From Fluviicola sp. (GTDB taxonomy: Bacteria > Bacteroidota > Bacteroidia > Flavobacteriales_D > Crocinitomicaceae): DNA of 64,000 nt. The stretch lies in contig JARWZO010000028.1 in assembly GCA_029866325.1 (NCBI GenBank), positions 1 to 64,000 of the forward strand. The letters run 5' to 3'. The notes below the pieces were generated by a model. That model did not search any database. It was not told where the DNA came from and saw only the letters and a list, made by a program, of their open reading frames with translations. This document shows positions 18,889-40,353 of the stretch, piece after piece; within the stretch, counting starts at the first letter, position 1, and each line of letters starts with the position of its first letter. The position numbers and the translations under genes were made by a program.

Positions 18889-18901
18889 AATGAAAGCCGG
18901 T

Positions 18902-19439: not shown

Positions 19440-19497
19440 TGTCCGATACAAAAGAAAATGAAACAGGGAATAGAAGATGGTGAAACAAATCTTATAG
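19440..19497. repeat. Left transposon end with TnsB-like sites
   Basis: The 11-bp terminal repeat is followed by two copies of a TGAAACA-type motif in the same orientation: 19459-19473 and 19481-19497 (TGAAACAAATCTTATAG). The second closely resembles a site in the right end. Tn7 ends carry several TnsB sites of this kind; binding here is inferred. Confidence 0.8.
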
Positions 19498-19519
19498 ATG
19501 CAAAAAAATGATAATCAAA

Positions 19520-19549
19520 AAGGACTGTTTCTTTACTGAAACAGTCCTT
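19520..19549 (-). terminator. Rho-independent terminator of the exported-protein gene
   Basis: A perfect 12-bp stem (19520-19531 with 19538-19549, AAGGACTGTTTC and its complement) with a 6-nt loop is followed by T residues on the minus strand. It lies just inside the left end and would keep cargo transcription from leaving the element. Confidence 0.85.
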
Positions 19550-19615
19550 AGAATAAGAATAGAGTCTACTTTAAAGATCTCTCAAATTAATTACTGAAAA
19601 TTTTTAATCAAAAAT

Positions 19616-21487
19616 CTACTTGTCTGTAAAGGCTCCTTTATTGGTTTCAAACAAAGTTTTAAGACGAACCTCGACAATATCGTTTGTTTCATTAATAGCT
19701 AAATTGCATTTCGTAATTAAACTATTGATATCAGCAATATCAGTCGATGAAAAATAAGGTTTTGCTAAAATCTCATTAAGCATTTCTTTGTTTGCCTTCA
19801 AATTCTTGAGCGTTTGCTCGAATAAAGTTGGATTTACTGGAATCGGTATCGTTGGAGCATTCGTGTCAGGATTTTTAGTCTTTTCAATAGTAAATAATAA
19901 GCGTTGAAGCGCAGCATAGCCTTTAGAATAAACTTCGTTTGATTGTTCAACCACCTGTAATATTTGGTTTCTTCTAGATTTTTCGTTGTTAACCAAATCA
20001 TTGTAAACCTTTTCAGCTTTTTGTGATTCTTCAAAGCATCTTCTGCACTTATCATTCTTGTTTTTTAAATCTATAAGATTTGTTACATCACTTTTCAATC
20101 TTTCATTTACAATATCTGACCTAATAATTGATTTAACCAATTCCTCAAACTTTGTGGAAAAGATATAGTTTTCAGCCATACTTTGTAGATTCAAAACATT
20201 TGAATGAAATGTCGTCTCAAGAATGAAGTCAAGCTCTTTTGTCGTTTCAATGTAGCTTGAGATGACGGCTAAATCAGAATTGTCAACTTTCGCCAGTTCC
20301 TTATCCATGATATTGAATACAGGTAACAATAAGCGATACATAGCAAGAGAATTTGCAGTTTGGCTAACGCAGGTAGTTAAATCTGTATAAATTATTTCAT
20401 AATGCTGTTGTTTAAGAATGGTGTTTATTTTGGTTTGATTAACCCTCGTTCGGAAATCATATAGAGCATTGTATGCCAATTTAAGCTTTTCAGTATTAAG
20501 TTCACTTCCCTGAGCCGCAACACCTTCAGCAATTATTAGCTTACTTTTGTAAAAGCTCAATAGGTTTTCTTCCGCTGCTAATTGTTGAACTGAAAGTCTT
20601 GACTTAATCATTCCAAAATCAGCTGTCAATTTTTCCAATTCATCTTTTGTAATATCACAACTACCCTTTTCACGATTAAATCTTGATGGTAAGCCTTTTT
20701 CGTCTAAATAATTTGATAATCCAGTTTCAATAATGATATAAGGATACTCCGTATATAATGTGTTGTTAACGTATAAATTCAATCTCCCTCCATGGTCTGG
20801 TGCTATTTTAAGACCTGATTTCGGAACAGGATTTGGAATATTTGGGCAAATAAAGACTACTTTGTATGAATGAGGTTGTATTCCTAATTCTGCTGGTTTG
20901 AACGCATCAAAGCTTACAGATGCATTAATGGTTTTTGAGGAACTAAGATTCGTAACAACATCATTCAAAAAGCCAAAAACCATTTTGGCAGCAGCAGGAC
21001 CATAAATAGATGCCGGATTCTCTATAATAGGTCCAACTTTATCTGAAACTTTTTTTATGATCTCAATTGGCTCATTCTTTAATTTGGTTTCTACACCTAC
21101 ATTAACCGTAGGCAAATCCGCAGAAAACTTGCTTATTGGGATTTTACGCACCACCGTCTTGTCAGAAAAAATGGCTACCGAAAACTTTCCTTTTTCTTTT
21201 TCCAATAAATACAATGGTGAGCTTTCAGATTTCCCATTGTAGGTAATTGATAATTCGGCAAAAAAGAACTCCATTTTATTGAACTTCCCTAGAAATTCTT
21301 TATCTCTTAATTTGTCCTCATTTCTAAAAAGAACGGACACGGCATAATAGGGATAATCATCAAGGTTTGGCTTAGTGGTTGCATCAGGCCGTGGAACATT
21401 ATCATTTTGAGAGGTCCCAAGATCAGTTTTTTGAGCGAACAAATTTGCTGAAATCGCACAAAAAAGAATTAATAAATTTCTTTTCAT
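19616..21487 (-). CDS. Exported protein of unknown function (transposon cargo)
   Basis: The 623-residue protein has a signal peptide (MKRNLLILFCAISANLFAQ), a beta-rich first 270 residues (YYAVSVLFRNEDKL; YNGKSESSPLYLLEKEKGKF) and a long helical, coiled-coil-like second half with a lone CRRC pair. No enzyme or sorting domain is recognised. Export is unusual for defence cargo, so the protein may act in the envelope or be unrelated to defence. It is the outermost cargo gene, transcribed toward the left end and closed by its own terminator. A 16-bp palindrome lies 68 bp upstream of its start, in the gap shared with the RNA gene. Confidence 0.6.
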   Translation of the reverse strand: MKRNLLILFCAISANLFAQKTDLGTSQNDNVPRPDATTKPNLDDYPYYAVSVLFRNEDKLRDKEFLGKFNKMEFFFAELSITYNGKSESSPLYLLEKEKGKFSVAIFSDKTVVRKIPISKFSADLPTVNVGVETKLKNEPIEIIKKVSDKVGPIIENPASIYGPAAAKMVFGFLNDVVTNLSSSKTINASVSFDAFKPAELGIQPHSYKVVFICPNIPNPVPKSGLKIAPDHGGRLNLYVNNTLYTEYPYIIIETGLSNYLDEKGLPSRFNREKGSCDITKDELEKLTADFGMIKSRLSVQQLAAEENLLSFYKSKLIIAEGVAAQGSELNTEKLKLAYNALYDFRTRVNQTKINTILKQQHYEIIYTDLTTCVSQTANSLAMYRLLLPVFNIMDKELAKVDNSDLAVISSYIETTKELDFILETTFHSNVLNLQSMAENYIFSTKFEELVKSIIRSDIVNERLKSDVTNLIDLKNKNDKCRRCFEESQKAEKVYNDLVNNEKSRRNQILQVVEQSNEVYSKGYAALQRLLFTIEKTKNPDTNAPTIPIPVNPTLFEQTLKNLKANKEMLNEILAKPYFSSTDIADINSLITKCNLAINETNDIVEVRLKTLFETNKGAFTDK

Positions 21488-21554
21488 AATTATACGTAAT
21501 AGTGATTAAAAACCTAATCTAGAAAAAAAAAGAATAAAGGTCTCATTTCTAAAT

Positions 21555-21570
21555 AAATAGTTAACTATTT
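21555..21570. promoter_or_regulatory. 16-bp palindrome in a divergent promoter region
   Basis: AAATAGTTAACTATTT is perfectly self-complementary. It lies between the exported-protein gene (-) and the tRNA-like RNA (+), where an operator would be expected. No regulator is assigned. Another 6-bp inverted repeat (AGTACC 21595-21600, GGTACT 21628-21633) lies between it and the RNA. Confidence 0.35.
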
Positions 21571-21621
21571 TATTCAAATGACTTTTGATGTACAAGTACC
21601 GTGTGTTTTAAAAAAAAGCGC

Positions 21622-21643
21622 TATCTTGGTACTAATACTTTTA
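21622..21643 (+). promoter_or_regulatory. Candidate promoter of the tRNA-like RNA
   Basis: Two possible -7 boxes are present, TATCTTGG (21622-21629) and TACTTTTA (21636-21643). The second would start the RNA almost at the acceptor stem; the first would need 5' processing. Neither has a good -33 TTTG. Confidence 0.35.
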
Positions 21644-21646
21644 GAT

Positions 21647-21788
21647 GTCTCAATAGTTTAATTGGAAAAAACATGGCGGCATTTAAACAAGGAGCGATGA
21701 TTTTTAACCATCATATGTAGGTTCGATTCCTGCTTGAGACACTAATGCTCCTTGTTATAGACTGATTCTTTATGTATCAGTCTTTTTT
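21647..21788 (+). ncRNA. tRNA-like RNA with 22-nt insertion, predicted pseudoknot and own terminator
   Basis: The fold reads: acceptor GTCTCAA (21647-21653) with TTGAGAC (21734-21740); U8, A9; D-stem GTTT/AAAC (21656-21659, 21669-21672) with GG in the loop; T-stem GTAGG/CCTGC with loop TTCGATT (21717-21733); discriminator A and no encoded CCA. A 17-nt arm at 21696-21712 has loop TTTTTAA, giving anticodon UUU (Lys type), with an A-C mismatch at pair 31-39. Between positions 26 and 27 lie 22 extra nt (21674-21695), of which AACAAGGAGC (21686-21695) is perfectly complementary to GCTCCTTGTT (21747-21756), just 3' of the acceptor. The helices cross, so a pseudoknot or a switch is predicted. A terminator hairpin follows. 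An ordinary tRNA would have neither feature. Confidence 0.7.
21759..21788 (+). terminator. Terminator of the tRNA-like RNA
   Basis: AGACTGAT (21759-21766) pairs with ATCAGTCT (21776-21783), followed by a run of six T. It lies 11 nt before the nuclease start codon, so that gene needs readthrough or its own promoter. Confidence 0.85.
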
Positions 21789-21795
21789 ATTTTTG
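21788..21795 (+). promoter_or_regulatory. -7 box embedded in the terminator T-tract
   Basis: TATTTTTG fits TAnnTTTG exactly and ends 4 nt before ATG 21800, predicting a leaderless nuclease mRNA. No -33 TTTG is seen; that position falls in the terminator hairpin. Confidence 0.4.
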
Positions 21796-21799
21796 GTAT

Positions 21800-22486
21800 A
21801 TGAGTAATTTAAAAAATATACAAAGGAAGTTAAGCGAAGGTGTTTCAGGTTGGTTGTTATTTGAATTCAACTGCTTTAGAGGATATCTTTTTAATGAAAA
21901 ATATTTATCCTACCCAGTAGGACAAATACTAAACAGTATCACTGAATATAAAACACTTACGGAAATTAATCACCCATGCGGCAATGCTGGACAAGGAAGA
22001 CCACTACAGATTGACTTCGTTTTAACTGACAATCAACCATCATGGAAATTTGCATTTGAATCGAAATGGATAGGTAACACAATGATTTCACTTGGCTCCA
22101 TTATATGGGATTTAATACGACTTCAAAATCTAGATGCCCATCATCAGGGTATAAGATCATATTTTATCTTGGCAGGGTTTGATAAGAAAATCAATATTTT
22201 ATTTCAAGACTTTGATGTCTGTTATATTGTTGGTTCACAAAAGGAAAACAAATTAACTAACGTTAATTCAACGTATTTGGTTTTTGACTTATGTAAACTT
22301 GATTCAACAACAAAAACATACATCAATGAAAAAATGAGAAAATACCCGAATTTTAATCTATATTCAAAAATACGTTGTAGACCTGCTCATAGATTCCCTA
22401 AAAATGACATTATAAATATGACATTCTCAACTTACATATTTGAAGTTTTCAAACCTGACAGAACTCACAAGATTAAAACCCTCTAA
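21800..22486 (+). CDS. Small PD-(D/E)XK nuclease-like protein next to the tRNA-like RNA
   Basis: The 228-residue protein carries a restriction-endonuclease-type signature: D72 in LQIDFVLTD, then E87-S-K89 in WKFAFESKW, followed by a helix (IIWDLIRLQNL) and a strand (SYFILAGF), the order of the PD-(D/E)XK core. There is no DNA-binding or ATPase domain and no signal peptide, so it is probably a cytoplasmic nuclease whose specificity comes from a partner. The gene begins 11 nt after the RNA's terminator, on the same strand. I infer that the RNA and the protein act together; the order RNA, terminator, protein also occurs in type III toxin-antitoxin loci, but there the RNA is a set of repeats. Confidence 0.6.
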   Translation: MSNLKNIQRKLSEGVSGWLLFEFNCFRGYLFNEKYLSYPVGQILNSITEYKTLTEINHPCGNAGQGRPLQIDFVLTDNQPSWKFAFESKWIGNTMISLGSIIWDLIRLQNLDAHHQGIRSYFILAGFDKKINILFQDFDVCYIVGSQKENKLTNVNSTYLVFDLCKLDSTTKTYINEKMRKYPNFNLYSKIRCRPAHRFPKNDIINMTFSTYIFEVFKPDRTHKIKTL

Positions 22487-22513
22487 TACGAAGCTCCAAT
22501 AGATTTTATTAGG

Positions 22514-22543
22514 TTGATTTCTAAATTCTCTTTGTTATCTTGC
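22514..22543 (+). promoter_or_regulatory. Promoter of the SEC-C nuclease gene
   Basis: TTG (22514-22516) and TATCTTGC (22536-22543) are 19 nt apart. A start near 22550 gives a 5' leader of about 70 nt to ATG 22623. Its -7 sequence resembles TATCTTGG upstream of the tRNA-like RNA, so the two units may be expressed alike. Confidence 0.5.
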
Positions 22544-22622
22544 ATAGTAGTTAGAATTCAATAATTTAACAAAAATACTATTCTACATACTTGAACCAGC
22601 CATAATACTATTCAATCTAGAC

Positions 22623-25600
22623 ATGAAATTAGGACGAAATGATCGTTGCTTTTGCGGAAGCGGCAAAAAGTACAAAAAATGTTGTCTTGGAAAAGCGACG
22701 CCACCTGAGTTAAGTCCTTCAGAGATTTTTTTCAGAAGATACAACACAATTGATTTATTAAAGTCATTTGCTGGTCTTTCTTTACTTCCTGAAAATCATG
22801 GGAAGAACTTTCGACTAGAAGAACTTGCATTTTTAGTGTCAAAAAACAGCAATTCAAATACTGAATTGGCAAATCAAAAGGAGTTAAAAAACTTCTTGGA
22901 TGAAGAACATTCCTATCATCTCATGGAAGATTATCCAACGAATTTATTCACTGACTTGGTGACATTTTATGGTGGGGATTATTTGATTTTCCCTGGAATC
23001 ACTGAATATGGCTCTTTTCCTCTTTCCAGCTTATTTAAAGCTATATTTCATTGGCCAACAGATAGTATTCCTGATGATTTCAGGAACAATTGTATTCATT
23101 TAAGTCTCTTCATTTTATCACTGTCCGATCAAATTGCACAGCGATTGGATACTAAACGTTACACGAAGGGCATTATTGAGGAGACTGAAATTTATATTCC
23201 CTCAAAGGATATATTTGATAAGTTAAAGTCTGCTGTTTCTTTCTCCAAAACTGAAATAATCGATCTTTTGAAAAGAAATCAAATAGCTCCTGAAGCTATG
23301 GCACCTTTCATATTCGATTCCGATTTGGAAAGTAATCCAAATGAAAGTGTAAATCCGATATGGTACAAACCAATCATTAGAATTGAAGATGAGTTCATAG
23401 TTGTTTCTCCAACCACTATGAGTTTAGCTTTGACGGACTTCATATGGTCTGAGGCTGAACGACGAGGATGTATAAAGGAAGTGAATGATGCCTACCACAA
23501 CTTTATTTGGAATCAACTTCAAGGGCAGCTAGGAATCATTGGATTTGACAATTTAGATTTCGTCATTTCATCAGAACAGGAGTTAAATTCAAAAATTGGT
23601 CTCTACAGGTTTGATAGTGACAAAATTGCACTTGTTCAATATATATACGATTCCGGTGAAAATTATAAAACTGCAGGATTTACATTAGATCTCAAAGGTC
23701 TTAGTATCCAAGCTAAAAGTGTCTTCACGAATTTAAAAGAGAACCTCGAATTCAAAGATTACGAGTTTTTTCATCTAATAGTTATTTCCCCGATAGGAAG
23801 AGAATTTATGATCCCTTTAAGGGGAGATGAGCAAATACCATGTATTGCGCTAACTCCATTCGAAATAGATGTATTATGGAATTCGGGTGATACAAAAGCC
23901 ATTGATTTATGGAAATTCGCGGTCGCGAGATCGAAAACATTATCTTCCAATGGAGGACTTTCATATTCGCTTCTTGATCAGTTTAAATTCTATAAAGAAC
24001 ACCATGAATCTTTTTATTGGAACGACAACACAAAATCTGCATGGATTGATATTGAACCAGGATATGCAGCTGAATTAATTTATGAATCAAAACTCAAAAA
24101 AGACGCTCATTCTGTTCCCAAAAAAGTCAACGGCAGGGTCGTTAATGTCGAGGTACTGAGAAAAGATGAATATGAACCCGTATATGTTGATTTATCTAGT
24201 TTAGCTAGTGGAGAACTCGAATTTATGATGGAAGGATTTTCTCAAGCTGTTTGGGTGAGACCAAAAAATACGGTGAAAGGTAAAAACGATCGTCTTCGTC
24301 ACATTTACTGGGAGATAAATTGCCTGATATCTTATTGGTTATGGCAAATACAAGATGATATCAAGGGCGATTTAAAATTTCTCGGAGAATCACCAATCGA
24401 GATTTTATTTGATTTAATTCTAGAAAGAGACTTCGATGCTAATGACATGGGTATCGAACGAGTCGATAACTTATTAGATTTCTTTCAATACAAAGTTTTA
24501 TCTGATGGCATTATTATTTCTGTTCCAAAAGAACTAATGCCATACTTGTACGGGACCGATAATGCAGGTGAAAGGGTCTTAGTTCAAGTTTTGCTATTGG
24601 CTCTAAATGAATTATTTAATTCCAAGAGTAGTCCTTTAATTGATACTGTTAGGATCGCTCAAATTATCGAGCAAAAGGCTCCTTTGGGGCATAAGAAAAA
24701 AATGCTCATGCTTGATCCAAATGACAACATCTTAATCCTACCAGATAACTTAAGTGATCATAGACTTGTTCAGGAATATGATTGTAGTATTGTACTAGAT
24801 ACAATCTGCCCCAAATTAGGAACTGACTGTCCTCCAGTTGGAAAAATCACGAATATAGATGATAAAAGAAAACTATCCTCAGAGATTGTTCAAAAGGCAT
24901 TATTACCATTACTAAGAGAAAAAATTAACTTGTTTAATGGTGAAGATCTTTTAAAGGAACTGATTTCCTTAAACGAAAGCCTGATAAAAAGAAAGGAAGA
25001 ACTCCGAATCTTCACTCCTACTCGAATTGCTTGTTATGTATCAGTAGAGCAGCATCAGATTGATTTGTCGTCAGAAATGGGCTTATTGGATAGAACAAGT
25101 ATTGCCACACGTTGCTTAATAGAGCACATCGCTGCCGAAGGGTGTACAGGGAACAAAATCGTTTCAACTGCCGGACTTGATGAATTGATCGCTATTATGG
25201 ATCAAATTAATATCTGGGGCTCACTCAGTGATCAAATTAACTTTAATCTAGTCGATATAGATTTGGGGATATTAGCTTCAGGTAGAGTCGGAACCAGCAA
25301 AGGACATAAAGATGTTTTTGAGGCGTACTATACAGGAAAAACGAATGAAAATATCGAGGATGCCGTTGATCACTACAGTCAAGTTTTCCCGCAAATAGAG
25401 GGCATCGAAGGTGAGGATATACCTATAGCACTTGATGATGCATTTAAAGCTGATTTTGGAGTTACACTGACACGAATTTGCGAATTTATCGATACAATTG
25501 CATTAATTGGTCACTTCCAAAAAGCAGCTTGGGCGTCTTTCGAACTTAAATTACTTCGGGATAAAATAAACGAATACGCATCTTTTGACGAAAGTGAATT

Positions 25601-26357
25601 TCAAAACGCAATTTCGTATTTAAGCCTTACTAATCGAGGTAAGGTGGAAAACATACCTACTGGGTATGATTATTTAGATATATTCCCCTGGAGGTTTAAT
25701 AGAATGTTATCTCTCCTAAGAAAACCAATTGTAATTGTAAAAAACCCTGATTCAGAATCAGAAATAGTATATTGGGGAGTTCGACAGTCCGTACTTTGTA
25801 AGCGATTCATATCCGAACAATTATTTTCCGATCGCTTTAGAGCTCTAAAAGATAGTAAAGTCAAAAAGTATTTGGGAACATTCGCACAGAAAAGAGGTGC
25901 AGAATTAGTGCAAACTATTTTAGCTACAATCAAGGAACCTGAATTAATAATTGATACTGATGTTTACATTGGTCCTAAACATTCATTAAAGAACGAAAAG
26001 GATATAGGAGATATTGATATTCTGATTATTGATGCATCTAGAAGACTTCTTTTTAGCATTGAATGCAAAAGCATGTCGCCAAGTCGAAATATTAAAGAAA
26101 TGGTAGAAGAACTCAATAAAATTTTCGGTGGAGAAAAAGGGTGGTTGAAGAAACATGAAATAAGGCATGATTGGATAAAAAACAATCGCGAACAGATTAC
26201 TAAAAAGTATCAAATTGACGTCTCGGATTTTGAGATCAGATCTTTCTTTGTAACCCAAGAAGAGATGTTAACTCCTCACATCAAAGAAGAATTATCGATG
26301 CCATTTTTAACGAGTTACGATATCACAAAAGACGGCTATAATACTCTAGTTAGATAA
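22623..26357 (+). CDS. Giant SEC-C / PD-(D/E)XK nuclease protein, probable defence effector
   Basis: The 1244-residue protein opens with a textbook SEC-C zinc motif, GRNDRCFCGSGKKYKKCC (residues 4-21, ligands C9, C11, C20, C21), as in the SecA C-terminus and many nuclease-linked proteins. Residues 30-1100 are unassigned. The C-terminus has a PD-(D/E)XK core: GDIDILIID (D1130, D1132), then E1147-C-K1149 in FSIECKSM, resembling Mrr/NERD-type nucleases. No Walker motif is seen. I infer a defence nuclease with a large sensing middle region. It lies on the same strand as the small nuclease, 136 bp downstream, with its own promoter, and its stop region overlaps the 3' end of the convergent Avs-like gene by 12 bp. 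Confidence 0.65.
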   Translation: MKLGRNDRCFCGSGKKYKKCCLGKATPPELSPSEIFFRRYNTIDLLKSFAGLSLLPENHGKNFRLEELAFLVSKNSNSNTELANQKELKNFLDEEHSYHLMEDYPTNLFTDLVTFYGGDYLIFPGITEYGSFPLSSLFKAIFHWPTDSIPDDFRNNCIHLSLFILSLSDQIAQRLDTKRYTKGIIEETEIYIPSKDIFDKLKSAVSFSKTEIIDLLKRNQIAPEAMAPFIFDSDLESNPNESVNPIWYKPIIRIEDEFIVVSPTTMSLALTDFIWSEAERRGCIKEVNDAYHNFIWNQLQGQLGIIGFDNLDFVISSEQELNSKIGLYRFDSDKIALVQYIYDSGENYKTAGFTLDLKGLSIQAKSVFTNLKENLEFKDYEFFHLIVISPIGREFMIPLRGDEQIPCIALTPFEIDVLWNSGDTKAIDLWKFAVARSKTLSSNGGLSYSLLDQFKFYKEHHESFYWNDNTKSAWIDIEPGYAAELIYESKLKKDAHSVPKKVNGRVVNVEVLRKDEYEPVYVDLSSLASGELEFMMEGFSQAVWVRPKNTVKGKNDRLRHIYWEINCLISYWLWQIQDDIKGDLKFLGESPIEILFDLILERDFDANDMGIERVDNLLDFFQYKVLSDGIIISVPKELMPYLYGTDNAGERVLVQVLLLALNELFNSKSSPLIDTVRIAQIIEQKAPLGHKKKMLMLDPNDNILILPDNLSDHRLVQEYDCSIVLDTICPKLGTDCPPVGKITNIDDKRKLSSEIVQKALLPLLREKINLFNGEDLLKELISLNESLIKRKEELRIFTPTRIACYVSVEQHQIDLSSEMGLLDRTSIATRCLIEHIAAEGCTGNKIVSTAGLDELIAIMDQINIWGSLSDQINFNLVDIDLGILASGRVGTSKGHKDVFEAYYTGKTNENIEDAVDHYSQVFPQIEGIEGEDIPIALDDAFKADFGVTLTRICEFIDTIALIGHFQKAAWASFELKLLRDKINEYASFDESEFQNAISYLSLTNRGKVENIPTGYDYLDIFPWRFNRMLSLLRKPIVIVKNPDSESEIVYWGVRQSVLCKRFISEQLFSDRFRALKDSKVKKYLGTFAQKRGAELVQTILATIKEPELIIDTDVYIGPKHSLKNEKDIGDIDILIIDASRRLLFSIECKSMSPSRNIKEMVEELNKIFGGEKGWLKKHEIRHDWIKNNREQITKKYQIDVSDFEIRSFFVTQEEMLTPHIKEELSMPFLTSYDITKDGYNTLVR

Positions 26358-29300
26358 TAAGAGTTCATTCAACTCTTGGGTCCAGGCAGTTATGTTAGAA
26401 AGAACTTCTTCTTGACTGATCTTCTGCCGATTTTCAACAAATTTTGTCACAGTTTGACAAATGGGTTTATATTTTTTTTCGCTCAAAGTACTAGACAATT
26501 CTTGTAAAGAAGCTTTGATATTAGTAGCTAGTTTGGTTTCTTTTTTATCTAATAACTGTTTTTCATATGGCTTTTGACGATTAAGATAAGTGCGGTACTG
26601 TTGCAATCTCCATATATCATACATCATGGTTATGTATGCGTCAGTCTCCTGTTGACTTTCTAATGGTTCGAAGAATATTCCTTCTAAAACATCTAGAGGA
26701 ACTTTATCTAACTCAATAGATATTGGATTTCCATAAATGCCTTGATCAAACTCTTCATCTTTTTCATAAGACATCTTAATACGTTCAAAATAGTTTCTGT
26801 GGCATCTGAACGCGCCAATGGCACGTCCATTCTTTGTATTCACAAAAGTGAACCAGTCTATCTCAGTTTCAGAAAGTCCCCTTAGGCTGATACTCATTTC
26901 TATCAAATCATTGCCATCGGACAGATCTAGGTAATCGACTCCAATAATTGCGTGCAAATTTTTATCTATTTCAAGAAGCTGATTTGGTTCTTGGAAAAAC
27001 AAATAGGATTCTGCAGAACTAATTATTGAATGTAACTGACTGATCCTTTTGAAATCTCGCTGATCAATCCATTTTAACAAAGAATCTCTAGAGTTTTTAA
27101 TAATAGCAGTATTGCCAGATGGGGTGAAAACTGCTATAAAGTACTCAAGTGCATTGAACAAACGTCTATACCATTCAAGTTCATCACAATTGATTTGATC
27201 TGTATTTACATATTGTGTTGTAAGATTGAGAATCGTATCAAAACCTTTCTGCATATTCGAAATCTCGTGTAAGGCCGATTCAAAATTGCGATAAGCCACG
27301 TTTCGCGAGTTATCGTTTTGCGGTTTTATTAACCAAACGAATTGATTAGCAAAATTGGTAATTGCTGACGACCATGTATCAATTTTCTTTAATTCCAAGG
27401 TCAATGATTCAGCAATTGAGGTCCTTTTATACTCTGGATATGTTTTTAGTAATTTGGAATAATCAATGAAGTTGGAAGAAGATTGAATTAATGGTTCCGC
27501 GGTTGCTTTAATACGTGAAGAATTATTTTCAATAATAGCTTCAAAATAACGGGTACAGATTTTTACAAATTCGAATGCGTAATTACGTTTTTTAATGATT
27601 TGCTCCTGCCATTCAAATGTAGAAGCAGCACGGTATTTATCAAGAATTGTTTTTCTCCATATCTGATTAAGATGTATTTCAAAGAAGTTGTTGATATTCT
27701 CTGGAGGCATAGCTTTTTCGGCATTTTGAAGAACAAGTTTATACATATCAATAGTAGGGAATGGCAATATGACTGCCTCTGATCTATATTTGCTGTAAAA
27801 GGGTAAAAAACTGTAAATAGTTTCTATCCTGGAAACACTGGATTCGTTCGAGGTTGTTATTTCATCATTTTCCAGCAGGTACTTTACAAGTATGTCTTCA
27901 CCCATTTCTTCAATCACAATCGAGTCTGTAATGTTCTTTAATAATGAAAAGATTTCTGATTTATTTTTTTTACAAAAAGTGAAATAGTCTTGGTCTTGGA
28001 GAATAATGAAATACTTGGATAATTCACTCACTTTTGTAAAGTCGGTATCAGAAATCAATTCTCTAAAAATACTCTCTACAAAAGGCAACTTATGTTTGAT
28101 CGGAATGCCTAATACCGTAAACCAGCCGATAAGAAAATTCAATGAATCATAGTCCTGAATGGATTCGTAATCACAAGGTAACTGATCTTCAATCGAGTCG
28201 GCAAATTTCCAAACCTCTGTTGTATTTAGATCAAATGATGAAAAGTTTTCTTTTCGTTGATTTAAGTCGCGAAAACCATTTCCTTCAACCCCGGATAATG
28301 TATTCCCTAAATTCTCAAGAATACCCAGTTTTTTGAATGGAATCATATCCATCACAAATAGATCAAGTGAGCCAGTTTCAAAAACTTCATTAAATGCAGC
28401 TTGATTTATTTTCCAATAATTATGTACATCAAAGAATAATAAGCCGTCAAGCGCTTTTACCTTCCATATGAAACTCTTTTTGGCTAGAATTGGAGCCAAT
28501 GATTTATACAATCCCTGAATCTGTTCAGTATTTCTGTCCACTGCAAGGTTAGCGAAGAAGTCGAAAACATCTGTTTGCTCAATTATCTGAAAGAGCGATA
28601 CTAACGAACCATTCAACGAAATTGTTTCATGTAAAGCATCTACAAGATGACGAGAGCGAACCGGATGTAACCCTTCAACATAATGCTCGCTAAACTTCAA
28701 ATAGTACTCATTTTCTAGTTGTTTATAGACTTCTCCGCGATCTTCTTCAAATCGGACAGTACTTTGGATGAACTCGGTTAAGCTCTGTGTAGAGATTCGG
28801 ATATTTAAGATATCTGCTAAGGAAATCAATCGAAGTATCTCTAATTTGGCTGCAGCTCCTCTTGACATTCGATTGAGCTCTTTGATTTGATGAGTTATGC
28901 GCTCCGCAATCATTTCACCTCGTGTTAATAAGAACACGTACTCAATCAACAACTTTTTCTCCTCAATAGTTTCCCAAGCCGGCTGCCATGAACTTGTGGA
29001 GTCGCTCAGTTTATTCTTTAACTGAAGTTGTTTAAAAATTTCTTCGGCCTCCTCCATTGAGAGGTAAATGTTAATGACCTGCAAACGAACTTTAGAAGCA
29101 TCACATCCGTAACGGTACCAATCCTCTTCTCTAGTAGTGACAATTACTTTCACAGGAATACCTTGTAACTGTTCAATGAGTTTACTCCAATTAGCGACCC
29201 CAGCACTAAGTCCGTCGATGACCAGAATAGGAGTTTCACCTATTTTTAACCTGGTGCATAGAAAATCAAATATGCCTGCAATTTGTGACTGATCTTCACA

Positions 29301-30275
29301 ATTCTGCAATTCGTATATACTATAGCCCTGAGCTTTCAAGTTTTGAGCTGCACACCAGGCTAAAGTAGATTTACCTTGGCCACTCGATGATTTTATTACA
29401 GTAACATCGAATGAATTTGCGCTTTCTTCAATCTGAGCTTCCCAAGTTGGGCGACGAACAGGTAACCCCTGCACAATATGATGCGGTTTAGCTGCTTTAC
29501 CTTCAAAATAGCCATCCTCCCCACTTGTTGATACCGCAGTAAACGAAATACTTCGAATCCAGTTGTATTGTATCGCCGGATTCACAATAGACTTTGAGAA
29601 AGAATCGGTTACCTCTTGAAGAATCTGAGAAAGATGAGTAAAGTCAATTATTTCACTGCTTTTCGACCAGAAAAGTATGTTATAAAATAATGCATGCAAG
29701 TAGCGGTCCTGAACTCCTTCATTTAACTGAAACCTTTCTGTCAATTGATGAATTATACTTTTACTGAGCTCATCTTCCGTATAGAACTTGTAATTAACTG
29801 CAGACAAGAATTGACTGAAATCGATTCCTTCAAGATCTATAGAGGATTCCAGAAATTTCTGTTTCCAAAATTCATCAGCACCAGGTTTGGCTTTAATCAA
29901 ATCATCTAAATGACCTTTTGAGATCTGCGCATTGTGAACGAGCAGAAATTTCGCGTTTGGATCCAACTTAAACACATCCATGAAGTTCTTTAAAACCCCC
30001 ATGTTCCAAAATCCTGATGCATCAATTGGATTAACAGAGGTTTTTAGCTGAACAAATTCGTTTCCAAGAACATTAACCACATCAACATCTTCCAATCCTT
30101 CCAACTGTATCTTTGTTTCCGATGCCTCAGTTAGTTCTAATAATGACCTGTGACAAGCGTATAACAATTGAAAACCAATTCCGCGGAGGTTAATCGCACC
30201 ACCGGTCCTTTTAGACTGTAGTGAGTTTAAATCTTCGTTCTTACTATTATTTCTTTTCTTTTTAGATTTTCCCAT
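26346..30275 (-). CDS. Avs-like antiviral protein: Cap4/DUF4297-type nuclease + STAND-like NTPase + long C-terminal region
   Basis: The 1309-residue protein has three parts. The N-terminus (about 24-130) resembles the Cap4/DUF4297 PD-(D/E)XK nuclease: GIGFQLLYA, then QLEGLEDVDV (E59, D63, D65) and VQLKTS (Q76, K78). An NTPase follows with Walker A SSSGQGKST (296-304), Walker B ILVIDG (350-355) and a sensor-like VIVTTREED (377-385). The last 800 residues are helical and probably recognise the trigger. This is the plan of Avs proteins, in which a phage protein binds the C-terminus and the nuclease degrades DNA. A tetratricopeptide repeat is not obvious by eye. The trigger is unknown. Confidence 0.75.
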   Translation of the reverse strand: MGKSKKKRNNSKNEDLNSLQSKRTGGAINLRGIGFQLLYACHRSLLELTEASETKIQLEGLEDVDVVNVLGNEFVQLKTSVNPIDASGFWNMGVLKNFMDVFKLDPNAKFLLVHNAQISKGHLDDLIKAKPGADEFWKQKFLESSIDLEGIDFSQFLSAVNYKFYTEDELSKSIIHQLTERFQLNEGVQDRYLHALFYNILFWSKSSEIIDFTHLSQILQEVTDSFSKSIVNPAIQYNWIRSISFTAVSTSGEDGYFEGKAAKPHHIVQGLPVRRPTWEAQIEESANSFDVTVIKSSSGQGKSTLAWCAAQNLKAQGYSIYELQNCEDQSQIAGIFDFLCTRLKIGETPILVIDGLSAGVANWSKLIEQLQGIPVKVIVTTREEDWYRYGCDASKVRLQVINIYLSMEEAEEIFKQLQLKNKLSDSTSSWQPAWETIEEKKLLIEYVFLLTRGEMIAERITHQIKELNRMSRGAAAKLEILRLISLADILNIRISTQSLTEFIQSTVRFEEDRGEVYKQLENEYYLKFSEHYVEGLHPVRSRHLVDALHETISLNGSLVSLFQIIEQTDVFDFFANLAVDRNTEQIQGLYKSLAPILAKKSFIWKVKALDGLLFFDVHNYWKINQAAFNEVFETGSLDLFVMDMIPFKKLGILENLGNTLSGVEGNGFRDLNQRKENFSSFDLNTTEVWKFADSIEDQLPCDYESIQDYDSLNFLIGWFTVLGIPIKHKLPFVESIFRELISDTDFTKVSELSKYFIILQDQDYFTFCKKNKSEIFSLLKNITDSIVIEEMGEDILVKYLLENDEITTSNESSVSRIETIYSFLPFYSKYRSEAVILPFPTIDMYKLVLQNAEKAMPPENINNFFEIHLNQIWRKTILDKYRAASTFEWQEQIIKKRNYAFEFVKICTRYFEAIIENNSSRIKATAEPLIQSSSNFIDYSKLLKTYPEYKRTSIAESLTLELKKIDTWSSAITNFANQFVWLIKPQNDNSRNVAYRNFESALHEISNMQKGFDTILNLTTQYVNTDQINCDELEWYRRLFNALEYFIAVFTPSGNTAIIKNSRDSLLKWIDQRDFKRISQLHSIISSAESYLFFQEPNQLLEIDKNLHAIIGVDYLDLSDGNDLIEMSISLRGLSETEIDWFTFVNTKNGRAIGAFRCHRNYFERIKMSYEKDEEFDQGIYGNPISIELDKVPLDVLEGIFFEPLESQQETDAYITMMYDIWRLQQYRTYLNRQKPYEKQLLDKKETKLATNIKASLQELSSTLSEKKYKPICQTVTKFVENRQKISQEEVLSNITAWTQELNELLLSN

Positions 30276-30323
30276 TCTAATGCGTTGTGGTTAAAGTCAA
30301 GACGAAAGTTAATCATCTTATCC

Positions 30324-30331
30324 CAAAAATA
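30324..30331 (-). promoter_or_regulatory. -7 box of the Avs-like gene
   Basis: TATTTTTG on the minus strand matches TAnnTTTG exactly, about 50 nt before ATG 30275. No clear -33 element is seen. Confidence 0.45.
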
Positions 30332-30383
30332 TTCTGTAAAAACTTAAAGCTTATGAACTGCGAAGAATTATTCGTAGCCTTAT

Positions 30384-31445
30384 TTAGTCGACCAATTCCT
30401 CTTCCTCATTTTGAGTTACTGGCGATGAGCTCGATTCAGTATGCAACGAGGTCTGACCAGTATTGGCTTTAACTAACTCTCGTTTCAACTTCATAGGAAC
30501 ATGCCCGTCAACCTTTTGGATAAAGCCCATAATTAACTTATAGAATGCCTTATTTCGAATGAAAATATTCGCTTCTTCTTTCGAAATATGAAATTCATCT
30601 TCATTAACAGAAGAGAACGTTTGTTTTAAGCTATCCTGATCACCTGAGAGCATTGCAAAAAGCAATTTGATTCCCCCTGCTTTTGAAAAAACGGTCTTTC
30701 TTAGATTTGCAACTGATAGAAACTTGGCCATTATCCAGTTTACGGTTTTATCGCTATAAAAATCTCGAAAGTCATCCTGAGTAAAGGGGGTTTTGGGTTT
30801 TAAACTATTATTAATCAGTTTAACGAGAAATTCAGGAACTTCACTGATCAGATCACTATCCTCTTCCAGTTCTTTTACCCCTTTTAGATGTTTATCCAAA
30901 ACCTTCCTCACGCTTCTTCTTTCCTTACGAGGAAGATGTTTAACGGTATCTAAAATAATTTCTTCAATCGTTTCCAATAACTCATCCAGCACCGGAATGA
31001 TAATCTCTTTGCTGACATCATTTTCAATAATTCGACTCTGTAAAATAGGAGTGAATACTTCTTTATTAGTTTTGTTAAAGCTATCCAAAGAACCTTCCAA
31101 TTTATGGAAGAGTGCAATATCTATTTCTTTCAGATTTTCAATAGATAAAAGAAATGATTTGTTCATTTTCTTCAACTTCCTTTGATCTACACTAAAGAAC
31201 TTCTCGGCTAATTCAGGTACTTGATAAATTGCAGAATTGGTAGGATCATTACTTTTTAGGAATCGCTCAAGTTTGGCGTATTCATTCCAAATTAAAAGTA
31301 AATCAGAAACCGTGAGTCGTATTTTCTTATAATGCTCCTGATTGAGATCAAACCGTTTCTGTCTCATTCCGAACCAATAAGTAACAGCGGCTCCGACAAT
31401 TGCCGTAGGGGCAAGTAAATTGTATGTTTCCTTCAAAAAGTCCAT
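30384..31445 (-). CDS. Membrane-anchored protein of unknown function (second gene of a pair)
   Basis: The 353-residue protein has one N-terminal membrane helix (LLAPTAIVGAAVTYWFGM) followed by a basic stop (RQKR), so the rest faces the cytoplasm. The soluble part is helical, with a Lys/Arg-rich middle (HLPRKERRSVRKVLDKHLKG) and an acidic tail. No enzyme motif is recognised. It starts 5 bp after the stop of the 392-residue gene, and the two surely form one operon. In the middle of defence cargo a membrane-anchored partner could be an abortive-infection effector, but this is inference from location. Confidence 0.5.
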   Translation of the reverse strand: MDFLKETYNLLAPTAIVGAAVTYWFGMRQKRFDLNQEHYKKIRLTVSDLLLIWNEYAKLERFLKSNDPTNSAIYQVPELAEKFFSVDQRKLKKMNKSFLLSIENLKEIDIALFHKLEGSLDSFNKTNKEVFTPILQSRIIENDVSKEIIIPVLDELLETIEEIILDTVKHLPRKERRSVRKVLDKHLKGVKELEEDSDLISEVPEFLVKLINNSLKPKTPFTQDDFRDFYSDKTVNWIMAKFLSVANLRKTVFSKAGGIKLLFAMLSGDQDSLKQTFSSVNEDEFHISKEEANIFIRNKAFYKLIMGFIQKVDGHVPMKLKRELVKANTGQTSLHTESSSSPVTQNEEEELVD

Positions 31446-31450
31446 TCTTA

Positions 31451-32629
31451 CTACAATAAGGTGAATATCTCTTCCTGACTTAATTCAAAAAAATGTGGAT
31501 CCCCGACATTGTAGCGAATGTAATAATCACAGGTGTAGCACTTTACCCAATCAATATTAATGATTTCTCCTTCATGAAAAAAATCATCCATCGAATGGCG
31601 ATAATGTACCAAAGAATCTAATCCACAGCAGGGGCATCCTAATATCCTCTTGAAATCCGGATGCAATTTCTCAGCATTTGCAAATCGCATTCCTCTTCCA
31701 TTCACATCATTATAATTGAGTTCGTAAGTTGCTTTATTGTTGCGAGTATATAAATTCATGTTGAGATTAGCCCTGCCAAGTTCTTTGAGGTGACCTAAAT
31801 ACAATAACAAAACGAAATTCCTATGCTGTTCTTTTTTTTGTCTTAAATCCTTGAAATCAAACTGGATTCTTGTAATGTGATCAAGTAAATCAATACCGGT
31901 AACTGTCTTTAAATAAAACATTGACTTTCCCAACTCTCCTTTTCTAGCTTCAATGATTTGTTGGACAATAGGTATTATTCTTTGTGAGATCATATAATCC
32001 AAAAACCATAAAGAAGGAAGTTTGTTTCCATTATGGAGAATTCGATCTCTATACCATGAAAGCAAATGCAGTGTCGTTTGATATTGCTTGGAATCTAGAA
32101 AAGAATATTGATTAATTATTCTCCGGAACTTTTTAACTATTGGATCAGGATCAGATTCTTTTTCCAATTCAATTAAACCATAAAACCTATCCAGGGAATC
32201 TCTAAATGTTGCTGACAGATATTTATTGTTATGTTTTTTAGGTTTAAAAGTGTTATCCCGAATTTTTGAAATTAAGGCCTTTGCTCTATTTCCATTTCCC
32301 GTTTTGGAATGGGTATAAGTCAACTTTGGGCTAGTTTTCCTGAGTAAATCCTTTAAAAACAACTCAAAAAATCGTTCGAAGGCAATTATTGTAAGCACGG
32401 TATTATCCTGATCCAGGTATTGATCATTCAATTTCCTGTTATACACGTATGACATTCCCATGGAGTATTCTTCATAGAAACGACTTTGAGTTTGAAAGGT
32501 GTTGAAATAATAACTAAACGCATGACGTAACGAATCATAGTAGTATTCCGGTATACGTTTAGTTTTACCCCTATTAGATACTCTGATTTCATTCTTTTCG
32601 GCAAGATTGATCAATTGATTAATGTTCAT
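31451..32629 (-). CDS. Protein with C-terminal zinc-ribbon-like cysteines (first gene of a pair)
   Basis: The 392-residue protein is mostly helical and Tyr/Phe/Arg-rich, and ends in a metal-binding-type module: GCPCCG, a His-rich spacer (HYRHSMDDFFH), then CYTCDYY. Cys pairs 45 residues apart suggest a zinc ribbon. Around residues 190-230 a segment with RDRILHNGNK recalls the RxxxxH motif of HEPN ribonucleases: R-D-R-I-L-H fits Rx4H. The HEPN reading is tentative, but would make this gene the toxin-like partner of the membrane protein behind it. Confidence 0.5.
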   Translation of the reverse strand: MNINQLINLAEKNEIRVSNRGKTKRIPEYYYDSLRHAFSYYFNTFQTQSRFYEEYSMGMSYVYNRKLNDQYLDQDNTVLTIIAFERFFELFLKDLLRKTSPKLTYTHSKTGNGNRAKALISKIRDNTFKPKKHNNKYLSATFRDSLDRFYGLIELEKESDPDPIVKKFRRIINQYSFLDSKQYQTTLHLLSWYRDRILHNGNKLPSLWFLDYMISQRIIPIVQQIIEARKGELGKSMFYLKTVTGIDLLDHITRIQFDFKDLRQKKEQHRNFVLLLYLGHLKELGRANLNMNLYTRNNKATYELNYNDVNGRGMRFANAEKLHPDFKRILGCPCCGLDSLVHYRHSMDDFFHEGEIINIDWVKCYTCDYYIRYNVGDPHFFELSQEEIFTLL

Positions 32630-32752
32630 AAATAGAGGCCTTACTAATTGTAAGCATGAAGATAATAAACATTCAATGATCTTAGTATCTCATGTTCAAA
32701 AGTCGGAAAGCTCCCTTTACATTGATTGCAGAGAATGTACAATTTTAATGCT

Positions 32753-33538
32753 TCACTGCTTTCTAATCAATTCCGTAATCGCTACTTTTTCCCCAGGTGC
32801 ATTCAACAGAATAATGGTGTCTTTTGAAACATGGAATATCTCATAATCCAAGGATATTCCGTTTTTGTGCATTGCATGAAGGAAACCGTCCACTTTATAT
32901 TCTCCATCTACTCTGAGAGCAGCATCCCCAAAGTTGTCATAATATGGAGCCCACAGTTGGAATGATCCGTTCTTTCCAAAGATCATTGATGTTTGTCGTT
33001 CACCTTCAATATCCCAGGTTCCAATAAACTCTTGGCAAACCTCATTTTTAAACGTGAGCTGAAATGAGTCCTTTGAATCGTCCAAATAACAGGTCCATTT
33101 CCCTGTAGGTTTACCTTTTTCGAAATATGATTCGCGAAGTTTCTTCCCGGTACCAGTGAAGTATTGTTGTTTTCCATCTAGAACCCCATTAGAGAAGTTT
33201 TCACGGGATAAAATGACTCCATTTGGTAACTTTGTCTCCTGCTGGCCATCAAGCTTTCCATTGTTGTAGTTGTTGGTATGGATTTGACCGTTTTCTGCAT
33301 AAAAAACGCAACTTCCATGAAGTGAATCAGCCTGGTAATGTAACTCCGCAATCTTCTTGCCGGCAGCATCCCATTCAACGTATTCTCCGTCCTTTATTTT
33401 TTGTCCGGAATCATCTGTGTAGTATTCGTAACGCTTAAGAAGCTTGCCAGTTGTTGGGTCTTGTATTTCTTCAATATCATTGCCACAAGAAGTTAGGAAT
33501 AGTGTTAGTGCAATTAGTGGTAAAAAGGTTGTTTTCAT
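32753..33538 (-). CDS. MORN-repeat lipoprotein
   Basis: The 261-residue protein opens with MKTTFLPLIALTLFLTSC, a lipoprotein signal with Cys at residue 18. At least five MORN/YwqK-type repeats follow (DGEYVEWDAAGKKIAELHY; GKLDGQQETKLPNG; GVLDGKQQYFTGTGKKL; GKPTGKWTCYLDD). The C-terminal 90 residues look like a separate beta domain. Databases often label this family a YwqK antitoxin, without good support. Its start codon overlaps the stop of the IS3 OrfA-like gene (ATGA), an unusual partner. Confidence 0.7.
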   Translation of the reverse strand: MKTTFLPLIALTLFLTSCGNDIEEIQDPTTGKLLKRYEYYTDDSGQKIKDGEYVEWDAAGKKIAELHYQADSLHGSCVFYAENGQIHTNNYNNGKLDGQQETKLPNGVILSRENFSNGVLDGKQQYFTGTGKKLRESYFEKGKPTGKWTCYLDDSKDSFQLTFKNEVCQEFIGTWDIEGERQTSMIFGKNGSFQLWAPYYDNFGDAALRVDGEYKVDGFLHAMHKNGISLDYEIFHVSKDTIILLNAPGEKVAITELIRKQ

Positions 33539-33816
33539 TTTTCTAAGAATTTTGCTAGTTCGTAATTATGAGCTGAAAGATTGATGTATAATCGACGAAG
33601 TGTTTGATTCTCGCTTTCTGCACTTTGATTTGATCCGTTGGATTCGATTAAAACAGAGTGTTTCTCTTCGATACCTGAAAGACTTCGTTTCCAAGAATAA
33701 TATGTCGGAATGCTTATTCTGTATCTCTTGCAAATTTCTCGAACTGTAATCCCTTCAAGATCTCTTTCGTTCAAAATTTGTCTTTTCTTTTCGTCAGTGA
33801 AATTGGATGATCTCAT
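33535..33816 (-). CDS. IS3-type OrfA-like helix-turn-helix protein, orphan
   Basis: The 93-residue protein contains the HTH_Tnp_1 pattern DEKKRQILNERDLEGITVREICKRYRISIPTYYSWKRSLSG. No OrfB or integrase follows, so it is a remnant of an IS3 element or a domesticated DNA-binding protein. ATG 33816 is preceded by a -7 box; a GTG one codon earlier is also open. It overlaps the lipoprotein gene by 4 bp, which suggests a retained cotranscribed gene and not a random scar. Confidence 0.65.
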   Translation of the reverse strand: MRSSNFTDEKKRQILNERDLEGITVREICKRYRISIPTYYSWKRSLSGIEEKHSVLIESNGSNQSAESENQTLRRLYINLSAHNYELAKFLEK

Positions 33817-33831
33817 CACTCATTTTGGTTT

Positions 33832-33839
33832 CAAATATA
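33832..33839 (-). promoter_or_regulatory. -7 box of the OrfA-like/lipoprotein operon
   Basis: TATATTTG on the minus strand matches the consensus exactly, 15 nt before ATG 33816. It lies in the 93-bp gap shared with the divergent XRE gene. Confidence 0.45.
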
Positions 33840-33909
33840 AAAAATATACTGATAAGCTGTTAGTTTATGAGCGGTTGACCGATAAGTATTCAGAATGTTC
33901 CTTTGTTTT

Positions 33910-34158
33910 ATGAATAAAGAACCAGCAAATTTGGTCAAACATAATGAAGCTCTCAAGAAACTTGGAACGCGTCTCAAAGAGATTCGTATTAGTAAGGGTT
34001 ACAAAAGTGCTGAAGCTGCAGCCCTTGAATTAAAAGTAAATAGGGTTCAATATGCACGATATGAAGCAGGAAAGAATATTGAATACTTAACATTGTTTGA
34101 TTTACTGGAGAAGATGGGCGTCTCCGTTACTGAGTTTTTTTCAACAGGGTTTGATTAG
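33910..34158 (+). CDS. XRE-family helix-turn-helix regulator
   Basis: The 82-residue protein has one XRE domain: LGTRLKEIRISKGYKSAEAAALELKVNRVQYARYEAGKNIEYLTLFDLLEKMGV, the usual five helices and no extra domain. ATG 33910 is preferred to 33895 because TTCCTTTG (33897-33904), close to a -7 box, lies between them. It precedes the TnsE-like gene by 8 bp and probably controls that gene and perhaps the divergent operon. Confidence 0.8.
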   Translation: MNKEPANLVKHNEALKKLGTRLKEIRISKGYKSAEAAALELKVNRVQYARYEAGKNIEYLTLFDLLEKMGVSVTEFFSTGFD

Positions 34159-34166
34159 TCAACTTC

Positions 34167-36092: not shown

Positions 36093-36759
36093 TTCCAAAT
36101 TGCAAAAATGTTAAGTACCTAATATTTGTAGGATCTTCATTATATGAACGGTCAATTTTAACTAGTTGATCAACTTCTTGAAGGTTCATCTTTATTGATT
36201 TCGATTTTCTCAGATCAAACGCACAGTACCAACAATGAAAGATTGGATTGATACCGCTTTCAACTGTAAATCGAAGATCTGCTTTTAATGGAGAAGACGT
36301 TCGTCCACATTTTGAGCAACAATCAATCAGGTAACAGCCACATTCAATACAACCAACGAAAAGGTTTAGCTTCCATTTTAATTGGTAATACCCTTTTTCC
36401 TTCAAACATTTTGGACAGAACTTCGAAAACGAATTAAGACCCGAATGTCCCTTTCGGTTAGGCTCTATTAACCATTTCGACCTACCACGATCCCACTTAA
36501 AATGGGGAACCTTATCCTTTAATACGTTAGGCAAACCTATCTGAATATTCAGATTGTTCTGAATCAACAACAGATTGCCTTCAACATCTATCGAAGATTT
36601 TAATAGACTTTCAAGTCCATAAAAAGCACAAAAACTCTTAGTATTACAATAATGTCGTCTTGATAAACGAATTAACCAAGAAGAAAGACTTTCATCCTGT
36701 CCTGGAATTACCAAATAAGGGAGTCTATCTTTAATAAGCTGTAATGATTGAATTGTCAA
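36061..36759 (-). CDS. tniQ: TniQ/TnsD-family target-site protein
   Basis: The 232-residue protein begins with the TniQ motif region PGQDESLSSWLIRLSRRHY and has zinc-finger cysteines: FCPKCLKEKG, VGCIECGCYLIDCCSKCG and HCWYCAF. TniQ/TnsD proteins choose the target and recruit the TnsC ATPase. At 232 residues it is much shorter than Tn7 TnsD (about 500), nearer the small TniQ of Tn5053-like and CRISPR-linked elements, so it may lack a large attachment-site reader. It overlaps tnsC by 29 bp and is the last gene of the operon. Confidence 0.87.
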   Translation of the reverse strand: MTIQSLQLIKDRLPYLVIPGQDESLSSWLIRLSRRHYCNTKSFCAFYGLESLLKSSIDVEGNLLLIQNNLNIQIGLPNVLKDKVPHFKWDRGRSKWLIEPNRKGHSGLNSFSKFCPKCLKEKGYYQLKWKLNLFVGCIECGCYLIDCCSKCGRTSSPLKADLRFTVESGINPIFHCWYCAFDLRKSKSIKMNLQEVDQLVKIDRSYNEDPTNIRYLTFLQFGIIQVNGNHTL

Positions 36760-40214: not shown

Positions 40215-40219
40215 TTCAC

Positions 40220-40353
40220 AATGCTATTTGGTTTCAATTACTTCTGTTATTTTGCAATTTTGTATCGCCAACTAATAGCATTTGTTTCATCCACTTTCGT
40301 GGAAATTTGGTGGAAAACCTGCGGTTTTGTTTCGAATTCCGATGTATCGGACA
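40220..40353. repeat. Right transposon end with TnsB-like sites
   Basis: Reading inward from 40353, the 11-bp terminal repeat is followed by TTCGAAACAAAACC (40323-40336), TGAAACAAATGCTATTAG (40272-40289) and TTGAAACCAAATAGCATT (40220-40237), all in the same orientation relative to the tip. The middle one matches the left-end site at 19481-19497 closely. The innermost touches the tnsA start region. Confidence 0.8.

Follow-up and report, generated by a model that had tools for sequence, protein, structure and literature searches.

Type III toxin-antitoxin systems are composed of a pseudoknotted RNA, a Rho-independent terminator, and a toxin, and belong to a phage-defence setting, according to the accessible part of the source (PMC5086642). 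The locus described here lies in a 64,000-nt stretch of Fluviicola sp. DNA (GCA_029866325.1, contig JARWZO010000028.1, positions 1-64,000, forward strand), hereafter the window. Like the type III systems ToxIN, AbiQ, CptIN, and TenpIN, it has an upstream RNA, a terminator, and a nuclease gene, with the terminator in this order in two of the three genomes that carry the RNA. Its crossing helices covary and meet the criterion for a pseudoknot, although their simultaneous formation is not shown. Unlike type III systems, it has a single tRNA-like RNA unit, and no tandem-repeat array is present in any of the three copies. The partner protein is modelled as a PD-(D/E)XK nuclease, not as the ToxN/AbiQ fold, and no family in Pfam, NCBIfam, or PADLOC reaches cut-off for it. 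As tests for repeats and for the ToxN fold both came out negative, the module is not classed as type III.

AbiF/RCd22 of C. difficile shares the RNA-terminator-toxin plan with this module: a 132-nt RNA and its terminator sit just upstream of the toxin gene, and the RNA neutralises the toxin by direct binding (PMC12373285, seen in part). The C. difficile pair differs in its two repeated abiF motifs and its Abi_2 (AbiD/F) protein, and the available portion of the article mentions no tRNA-like fold (PMC12373285).

With tRNA-Lys(UUU) (RF00005), the RNA shares the acceptor, D-arm, T-arm, and UUU loop. Unlike a tRNA, it has a 22-nt insert that pairs with the trailer, a terminator of its own, and a linked gene. 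The tmRNA and bacterial Y RNA (YrlA) carry tRNA-like domains, and tmRNA has pseudoknots. Both differ from this RNA in topology and partner; ARAGORN finds no tmRNA, and tRNA is the only Rfam match within the window.

PrrC and AriB (of PARIS) act on tRNA-Lys(UUU), the tRNA that is mimicked, and a PrrC gene adjoins one copy of the RNA. The fold of PrrC differs from that of the PD-(D/E)XK partner. AriB has a Toprim fold, which is also unlike the partner (PMC12409363, in the part available). The accessible text of the two sources mentions no tRNA-mimic RNA partner for PrrC or AriB (PMC2610378, PMC12409363).

The module is proposed to work like a type III system and looks like a tRNA, and it is classed as neither. 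That the knotted tRNA-Lys(UUU)-like RNA and the nuclease form a two-part module working like a type III toxin-antitoxin pair is given an even chance of being correct. If true, a tRNA scaffold can serve as the basis of an RNA antitoxin, and a nuclease can be controlled by mimicking tRNA.

Layout and covariation of the RNA

The earlier note on this DNA had described a tRNA-like RNA with acceptor stem, U8/A9, D-arm, T-arm, and UUU anticodon loop, in which 22 extra nt separate the D-arm from the anticodon arm and ten of these pair perfectly with a strand beyond the acceptor stem. All of these elements can be read directly in 21644-21788 (Table 1), and the ten-pair helix (H3) crosses the acceptor stem. 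The anticodon arm of the window RNA has an A31-C39 mismatch. For each of the three copies, the crossing two-helix layout outscores every one of 300 dinucleotide shuffles and is not a product of chance. The minimum free energy of 21640-21795, a span that includes the terminator, has a z-score of -3.97. A leader 5' of the acceptor pairs with GGCAUUUA in the window fold and, by eye, in relative L021; this pairing is absent from relative L023.

Table 1. Positions of the RNA, its partner gene, and the surrounding transposon in the window
Feature	Positions	Strand	Basis or detail
Tn7-like transposon holding RNA and gene	19440..40353	.	ends TGTCCGATACA / TGTATCGGACA; TATTA target duplication (5 bp) flanking each end
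tRNA-like body with 22-nt insert	21647..21741	+	direct reading and Rfam tRNA, 43.3 bits
Acceptor 5' strand GTCTCAA	21647..21653	+	pairs with 21734-21740
U8/A9	21654-21655	+	direct reading
D-arm	21656..21672	+	4-bp stem 21656-21659/21669-21672; 11/12 cells paired in three-row alignment
Insert, 22 nt, D-arm to anticodon arm	21674..21695	+	direct reading
GGCAUUUA within insert	21678..21685	+	identical in 3/3 RNA copies
H3, 5' strand AACAAGGAGC	21686..21695	+	10/10 pairs with GCTCCTTGTT
Anticodon-like arm, loop UUUUUAA, anticodon UUU	21696..21712	+	direct reading
T-arm with GGUUCGA, 5 bp	21717..21733	+	Rfam match and three-row alignment
Acceptor 3' strand TTGAGAC	21734..21740	+	pairs with 21647-21653
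A73	21741	+	direct reading
H3, 3' strand GCTCCTTGTT, trailer	21747..21756	+	beyond acceptor stem
Intrinsic-terminator-like hairpin and U tracts	21760..21794	+	hairpin 21760-21782, then TTTTTTATTTTT; by eye
Partner gene (228 aa), product modelled as PD-(D/E)XK-type nuclease with D72 and E87-x-K89	21800..22486	+	AlphaFold, Foldseek, alignment
TniQ, TniB, Mu-C-type transposase, and TnsA genes	36061-40214	-	inside Tn7-like transposon

Relatives were sought with the gene directly downstream of the RNA as bait. A scan of genome contigs with the partner protein returned one relative, L021 (73% identical), from a Marinilabiliaceae MAG. The same RNA lies directly upstream of its partner gene, with letters changed and pairs kept. 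A phylum sample added L023 (44% identical), from another family of the same class as the window, and the distant L024 (26%; range 22-26%); a later genome sample added L286, with a 31% identical protein. A covariance model built from the window and L021 only, with acceptor pairs excluded (R1), finds the third RNA copy directly upstream of the L023 partner gene at E=2.8e-9. The RNA is thus directly upstream of a partner-family gene in all three genomes that carry it. The earlier note had mentioned neither this gene, nor the mobile settings, nor the Lys identity of two of the three copies.

The three-row alignment of these copies was fitted to H3 and not to the acceptor, so the covariation figures for the acceptor do not depend on the fit. 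Pairing is complete in the acceptor stem (21/21 cells; 7/7 pairs in all three copies), and four of the seven pairs have changed on both sides. H3 is paired in 30/30 cells (10/10 in each copy) with two-sided change in 7/10 pairs, and in the raw sequences it is exact over 10 bp in the window, 10 bp in L021, and at least 13 bp in L023. Across the whole alignment, standard pairs fill 95.6% of the pair cells, and 16 pairs show two-sided change; sliding the 3' partners by 1-3 columns, as a control, leaves 39-54% standard with 1-3 two-sided changes. A covariance search for compensatory changes in both helices had been proposed beforehand, and such changes are present on three sequences. The refutation offered with it, loss of the ten-pair complementarity in homologues, failed, as H3 is kept by covariation. 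Two of the three sequences are close, and most two-sided changes separate L023 from the other two.

Constant in all three copies are GGCAUUUA, GA[U/G]UUUUAACC around the anticodon, the T-loop GGUUCGA, GG in the D-loop, and A-C after the acceptor. A guide-RNA reading was rejected, since the strands that vary can pair with one another, which is unlike a spacer.

The two remaining relatives are without a recognisable copy. In L286 the best score of covariance model R2 is 7.7 bits (E=0.81), and L024 has no R2 match at E 0.1. The RNA is therefore found with three of the five family members, and it looks as if it belongs to one branch of the partner protein family. Upstream of the L024 gene (1930-2050, minus strand), ACGGCGC/GCGCCGT and GGAAAGCT/AGCTTTCC stand in the same crossing order, and an A follows the first helix. 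The score of this crossing pair is reached by 2/3000 shuffles but by 5/461 real GC-matched windows, and its resemblance to the pair of the mimics, seen in sequence, is only suggestive.

In all three copies, nested folding favours H3 together with a different helix, in which UGG(N)GGC from the insert pairs with the 5' strand of the acceptor. This competing helix is paired in 17/17 scored cells and has zero two-sided changes. As the acceptor has four and the competing helix none, the tRNA form appears, from the aligned copies, to be under selection. A two-state fold switch is possible. Both crossing helices are conserved, but whether they form simultaneously is not shown, with three sequences of which two are close and a nested fold in competition.

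The competing helix also bears on cis-regulation. Here the RNA would be a tRNA-like leader to which the nuclease, as a tRNA-binding protein, attaches to repress its own mRNA, or else a switch of fold would set terminator read-through; either way there would be no free RNA function. The known tRNA mimicry of the E. coli thrS leader is a precedent, and RNA, terminator, and gene are in line in the window and L021. The complete pairing of the competing 5' helix fits as well, although its changes are one-sided only. H3 and the acceptor end at 21756 and the terminator stem starts at 21760, so no anti-terminator is evident, and the tRNA elbow and crossing helix exceed the needs of a leader. Cis-regulation is considered unlikely, though it too is kept as an alternative.

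A short ORF (21673-21720) begins with an AUG at the edge of the insert and is open, by eye, in all three RNA copies; L024 has a similar one, also by eye. Between the window and L021, six of its codons have changed and four of these alter the residue (by eye), so a coding role is not favoured, nor is it excluded.

Likeness to tRNA-Lys

The Rfam tRNA model scores the window RNA at 43.3 bits, L021 at 40.7, and L023 at 16.5 (cut-off 29). The window RNA is the second-lowest of 41 tRNA matches across its genome, and the L023 copy keeps the crossing layout despite its score. ARAGORN calls no tRNA for the intact RNA in any of the three, and its scan of the window comes back empty. With the insert removed, tRNA-Lys(ttt) is named in the window and L021 (2/3), and nothing is called for L023. 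Of four scored anticodon-stem pairs, the window keeps four, L021 three, and L023 two.

The two scores above cut-off and the two Lys(UUU) calls could indicate a functional but unusual tRNA-Lys, or a tRNA gene in decay that carries an insertion. A normal intron-bearing tRNA or a pseudogene had been named in advance as a refutation, and it has partial support, in that the window and L021 do pass the Rfam cut-off, each scored as a tRNA bearing a long insertion. Against it are the position of the insert, which precedes the anticodon arm and is outside the anticodon loop, and the 16.5 bits of L023. The host moreover carries an ordinary tRNA-Lys(UUU), the insert and trailer covary, and three genomes share this layout in front of the same gene. 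An ordinary tRNA, pseudogene, or intron-bearing tRNA is unlikely given the covariation, the recurrence, and the place of the insert, and an odd or decaying tRNA-Lys is given hardly any credence.

The ordinary tRNA-Lys(UUU) of the window's host has U39, and all three mimics have C39 (numbering our own), which is mismatched with A31. AriB of PARIS cuts tRNA-Lys, and replacing U39 by A is by itself enough to prevent this, as stated in the accessible part of the source (PMC12409363). The parallel between C39 and the U39 dependence of AriB rests on analogy and is suggestive only.

These features can be read as those of a bait or sensor, in which anticodon nucleases (of PrrC type or phage-provoked) would cut the mimic, and the cut, or the change of fold that it brings about, would activate the partner. 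The RNA would then be an active guard, beyond a mere antitoxin. The UUU loop and GA[U/G]UUUUAACC are kept in 3/3 copies, the alternative 5' fold is available to all three, and one copy adjoins PrrC, which cuts tRNA-Lys in E. coli (PMC2610378, in part). The C39 of the mimics against the host's U39 would fit with the U39 dependence of AriB (PMC12409363, in part), but could equally mean resistance to cutting. The PrrC linkage occurs once, and the window's genome has no PrrC-like match in a search without a positive control. A bait or sensor is considered unlikely, though it is kept as an alternative.

A broader proposal is also doubtful, namely that the knotted tRNA-Lys decoy is a new class of immune RNA that watches over the state of the cell's tRNA. 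The decoy would be acted on by anticodon nucleases or by phage tRNA processing, its fold would flip, and the dedicated PD-(D/E)XK nuclease would be released, such that the cell would sense an attack on translation via an imitation tRNA. In homologues without the RNA, an ATPase would have taken the place of this guard (L286, TrlF/Ppl-like). If the type III-like reading is right, the effect of tRNA-Lys-cutting defence systems, and of the phages that counteract them, on tRNA decoys made by the cell itself becomes a directly testable question.

A tRNA cluster at G000:C12:392100-392620 (L127) contains Cys, Gln, and Leu genes and two odd Pro(TGG) genes called by ARAGORN.

Predicted partner nuclease, gene order, and proposed mechanism

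No Pfam or NCBIfam family reaches its cut-off for the partner protein, and searches of PADLOC and PHROGs returned nothing of note. An AlphaFold model from a five-row alignment has pLDDT 81.2 and pTM 0.83; a three-row input gave pLDDT 36 and no usable model. The PD-(D/E)XK core has the order alpha-beta-beta-beta-alpha-beta with D and ExK. The modelled core is H34-47, E51-57, E70-76 (D72), E82-91 (E87, K89), H98-113, and E119-127, and D72, E87, and K89 are invariant in 5/5 family proteins. The core order and D/ExK residues meet the criterion for the superfamily, while the fold matches are weak in E-value. Foldseek gives the restriction enzymes DrdV (0.96) and BsaXI (0.93) the highest probability in the PDB, with a TM to query of 0.31, and a viral PD-(D/E)XK nuclease a probability of 0.99 (TM to query about 0.3). 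E-values are about 0.006-0.06; the best is 0.033 in the PDB and 0.0064 in BFVD, and no match reaches 0.001. Two unrelated proteins of low probability are among the first four PDB rows. The partner is predicted from this model to be a PD-(D/E)XK nuclease.

The RNA had been said to end in its own terminator. The hairpin and U tracts are seen by eye and the hairpin is kept in L021, but the automatic terminator scan lists no site at 21760-21794; its loop limit is 8, and the loop of this hairpin is 9. No clear terminator is seen in L023. The order RNA-terminator-gene is therefore observed, by eye, in the window and L021 (2/3), and L023 has the same order without a clear terminator. The ATG stands 17 nt past the terminator stem in the window and 13 nt past it in L021, too close for a promoter to fit in between. 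A 9-of-12 sigma-70-like site lies within the RNA (21734-21763; 2 sites found versus 1.9 expected). A second promoter inside the RNA is not excluded, and the site is at chance level. L023 has sigma-70-like sites upstream of the RNA on the same strand (2349-2376 and 2379-2406; 4 sites in the whole stretch scanned versus 1.4 expected), and none is listed upstream of the RNA in the window or L021. The scan does not cover Bacteroidota-type promoters.

In the type III-like module, transcription of the knotted tRNA-Lys(UUU)-like RNA from one promoter would end at the terminator, and occasional read-through would yield the nuclease message. With the message made by read-through, the RNA would be in excess of it. 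The excess RNA, a stable imitation of the tRNA on which the nuclease acts, would bind the enzyme and keep it inactive. Loss of the RNA, by phage transcription shut-off or by cutting of the mimic, would free the nuclease and stop both cell and phage. The simplest reading of the likeness to tRNA-Lys would be that the nuclease acts on, or recognises, tRNA.

The module has an observed basis in the RNA layout, the covariation, the linkage in three genomes, the Lys identity in 2/3, the gene order in 2/3, the nuclease model, and the mobile and defence settings. Transcription, RNA-protein binding, inhibition, tRNA as the target, and the trigger are all inferred, without expression or binding data. Against the module stand L286 without the RNA, L024 without an R2 match, and L023, which has no clear terminator, keeps 2/4 pairs of the anticodon stem, and gets no tRNA call from ARAGORN when the insert is removed. 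The absence of tandem repeats, the second promoter that is not excluded, the weak Foldseek E-values, and the single PrrC linkage also count against it. The covarying crossing helices offer a clean structural target of one short RNA and one 228-aa protein.

Genomic settings and searches for further copies

The three copies lie in a transposon, a cassette-like unit, and a restriction locus, and the module is thus portable. The Tn7-like transposon of the window is apparently complete and carries several defence-like cargo genes. The cargo beside the module includes a remote Upx relative, matched by PADLOC at E=3.2e-43 but given 166.5 bits by NCBIfam, where the cut-off is 1900; another cargo protein has weak nSTAND and LmuA matches.

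In L021, the RNA and a 228-aa gene lie between two 131-nt direct repeats (2-132 and 1046-1176) that are 1044 nt apart. RNA and gene are the only features recognised between them; the other ORFs of at least 50 aa are two on the minus strand that overrun a repeat. The repeats look like integron attC sites. The term integron rests on the repeats alone, as no integrase was looked for or seen and the contig is short. Toxin-antitoxin cassettes in integrons carry their own promoters, according to the part of the source available (PMC11023631), and by analogy this would fit the setting of L021.

The L023 module is convergent with hsdM, the last gene of hsdR-hsdS-PrrC-hsdM (PADLOC PrrC E=1.1e-91). PrrC is a tRNA-Lys nuclease silenced by its type I enzyme, as far as the accessible text describes it (PMC2610378). 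The L286 gene starts 36 nt after a gene for a TrlF/Ppl-like ATPase. From the defence and mobile settings, L286 included, the partner family looks like a defence-associated nuclease.

No further copy was found in plasmids and phages by DNA or by the window and L024 proteins, in plasmids by the L023 protein, or in viral contigs by protein. Two RNA patterns gave none in viral contigs either, for the second pattern among the matches listed. Among the best 25 of 97 pattern places, a 5-pair T-arm, H3 of at least 10 pairs, and a 7-pair acceptor occur together only in the window's own copies, L021, and L023. R2 finds nothing at E 0.1 in 93 first-scan loci and L024, nor in 117 new second-scan loci.

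Genomes with matches numbered 3/395, 2/395, 1/244, 1/14, 1/27, 3/100, and 2/223 in the samples searched. The samples overlap, hold a few hundred genomes each, and count the query's own genome where it was sampled; two of the three matches in the sample of 100 are marginal (E 0.007 and 0.009). On 395 genomes, R2 marks 36 places in 34 genomes, of which two are strong (G000 and G348) and 34 weak. The 14 weak places examined, one of them in G480, are all ordinary tRNAs by ARAGORN. A DNA search matched 180/200 genomes at E up to 1; among the matches listed, those other than the window's own are short, with E 4.4e-4 or weaker. Metagenomes were outside the scope. No published tRNA-like antitoxin or defence RNA that matches was found in titles and abstract openings, which is weak evidence of absence with subscription papers and preprints mostly uncovered.

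Three genes or gene groups near the module and its relatives are recorded here. A 623-aa protein with no Pfam or PADLOC match is encoded within the transposon at 19616-21487 (minus strand), divergent from the RNA. Just outside the left end of the transposon are three consecutive SSB-like genes (18203-19246, minus strand; by eye). The TrlF/Ppl-like anti-phage ATPase (L287:3030-6578) and the adjoining relative of the partner possibly form an unnamed two-gene defence system.
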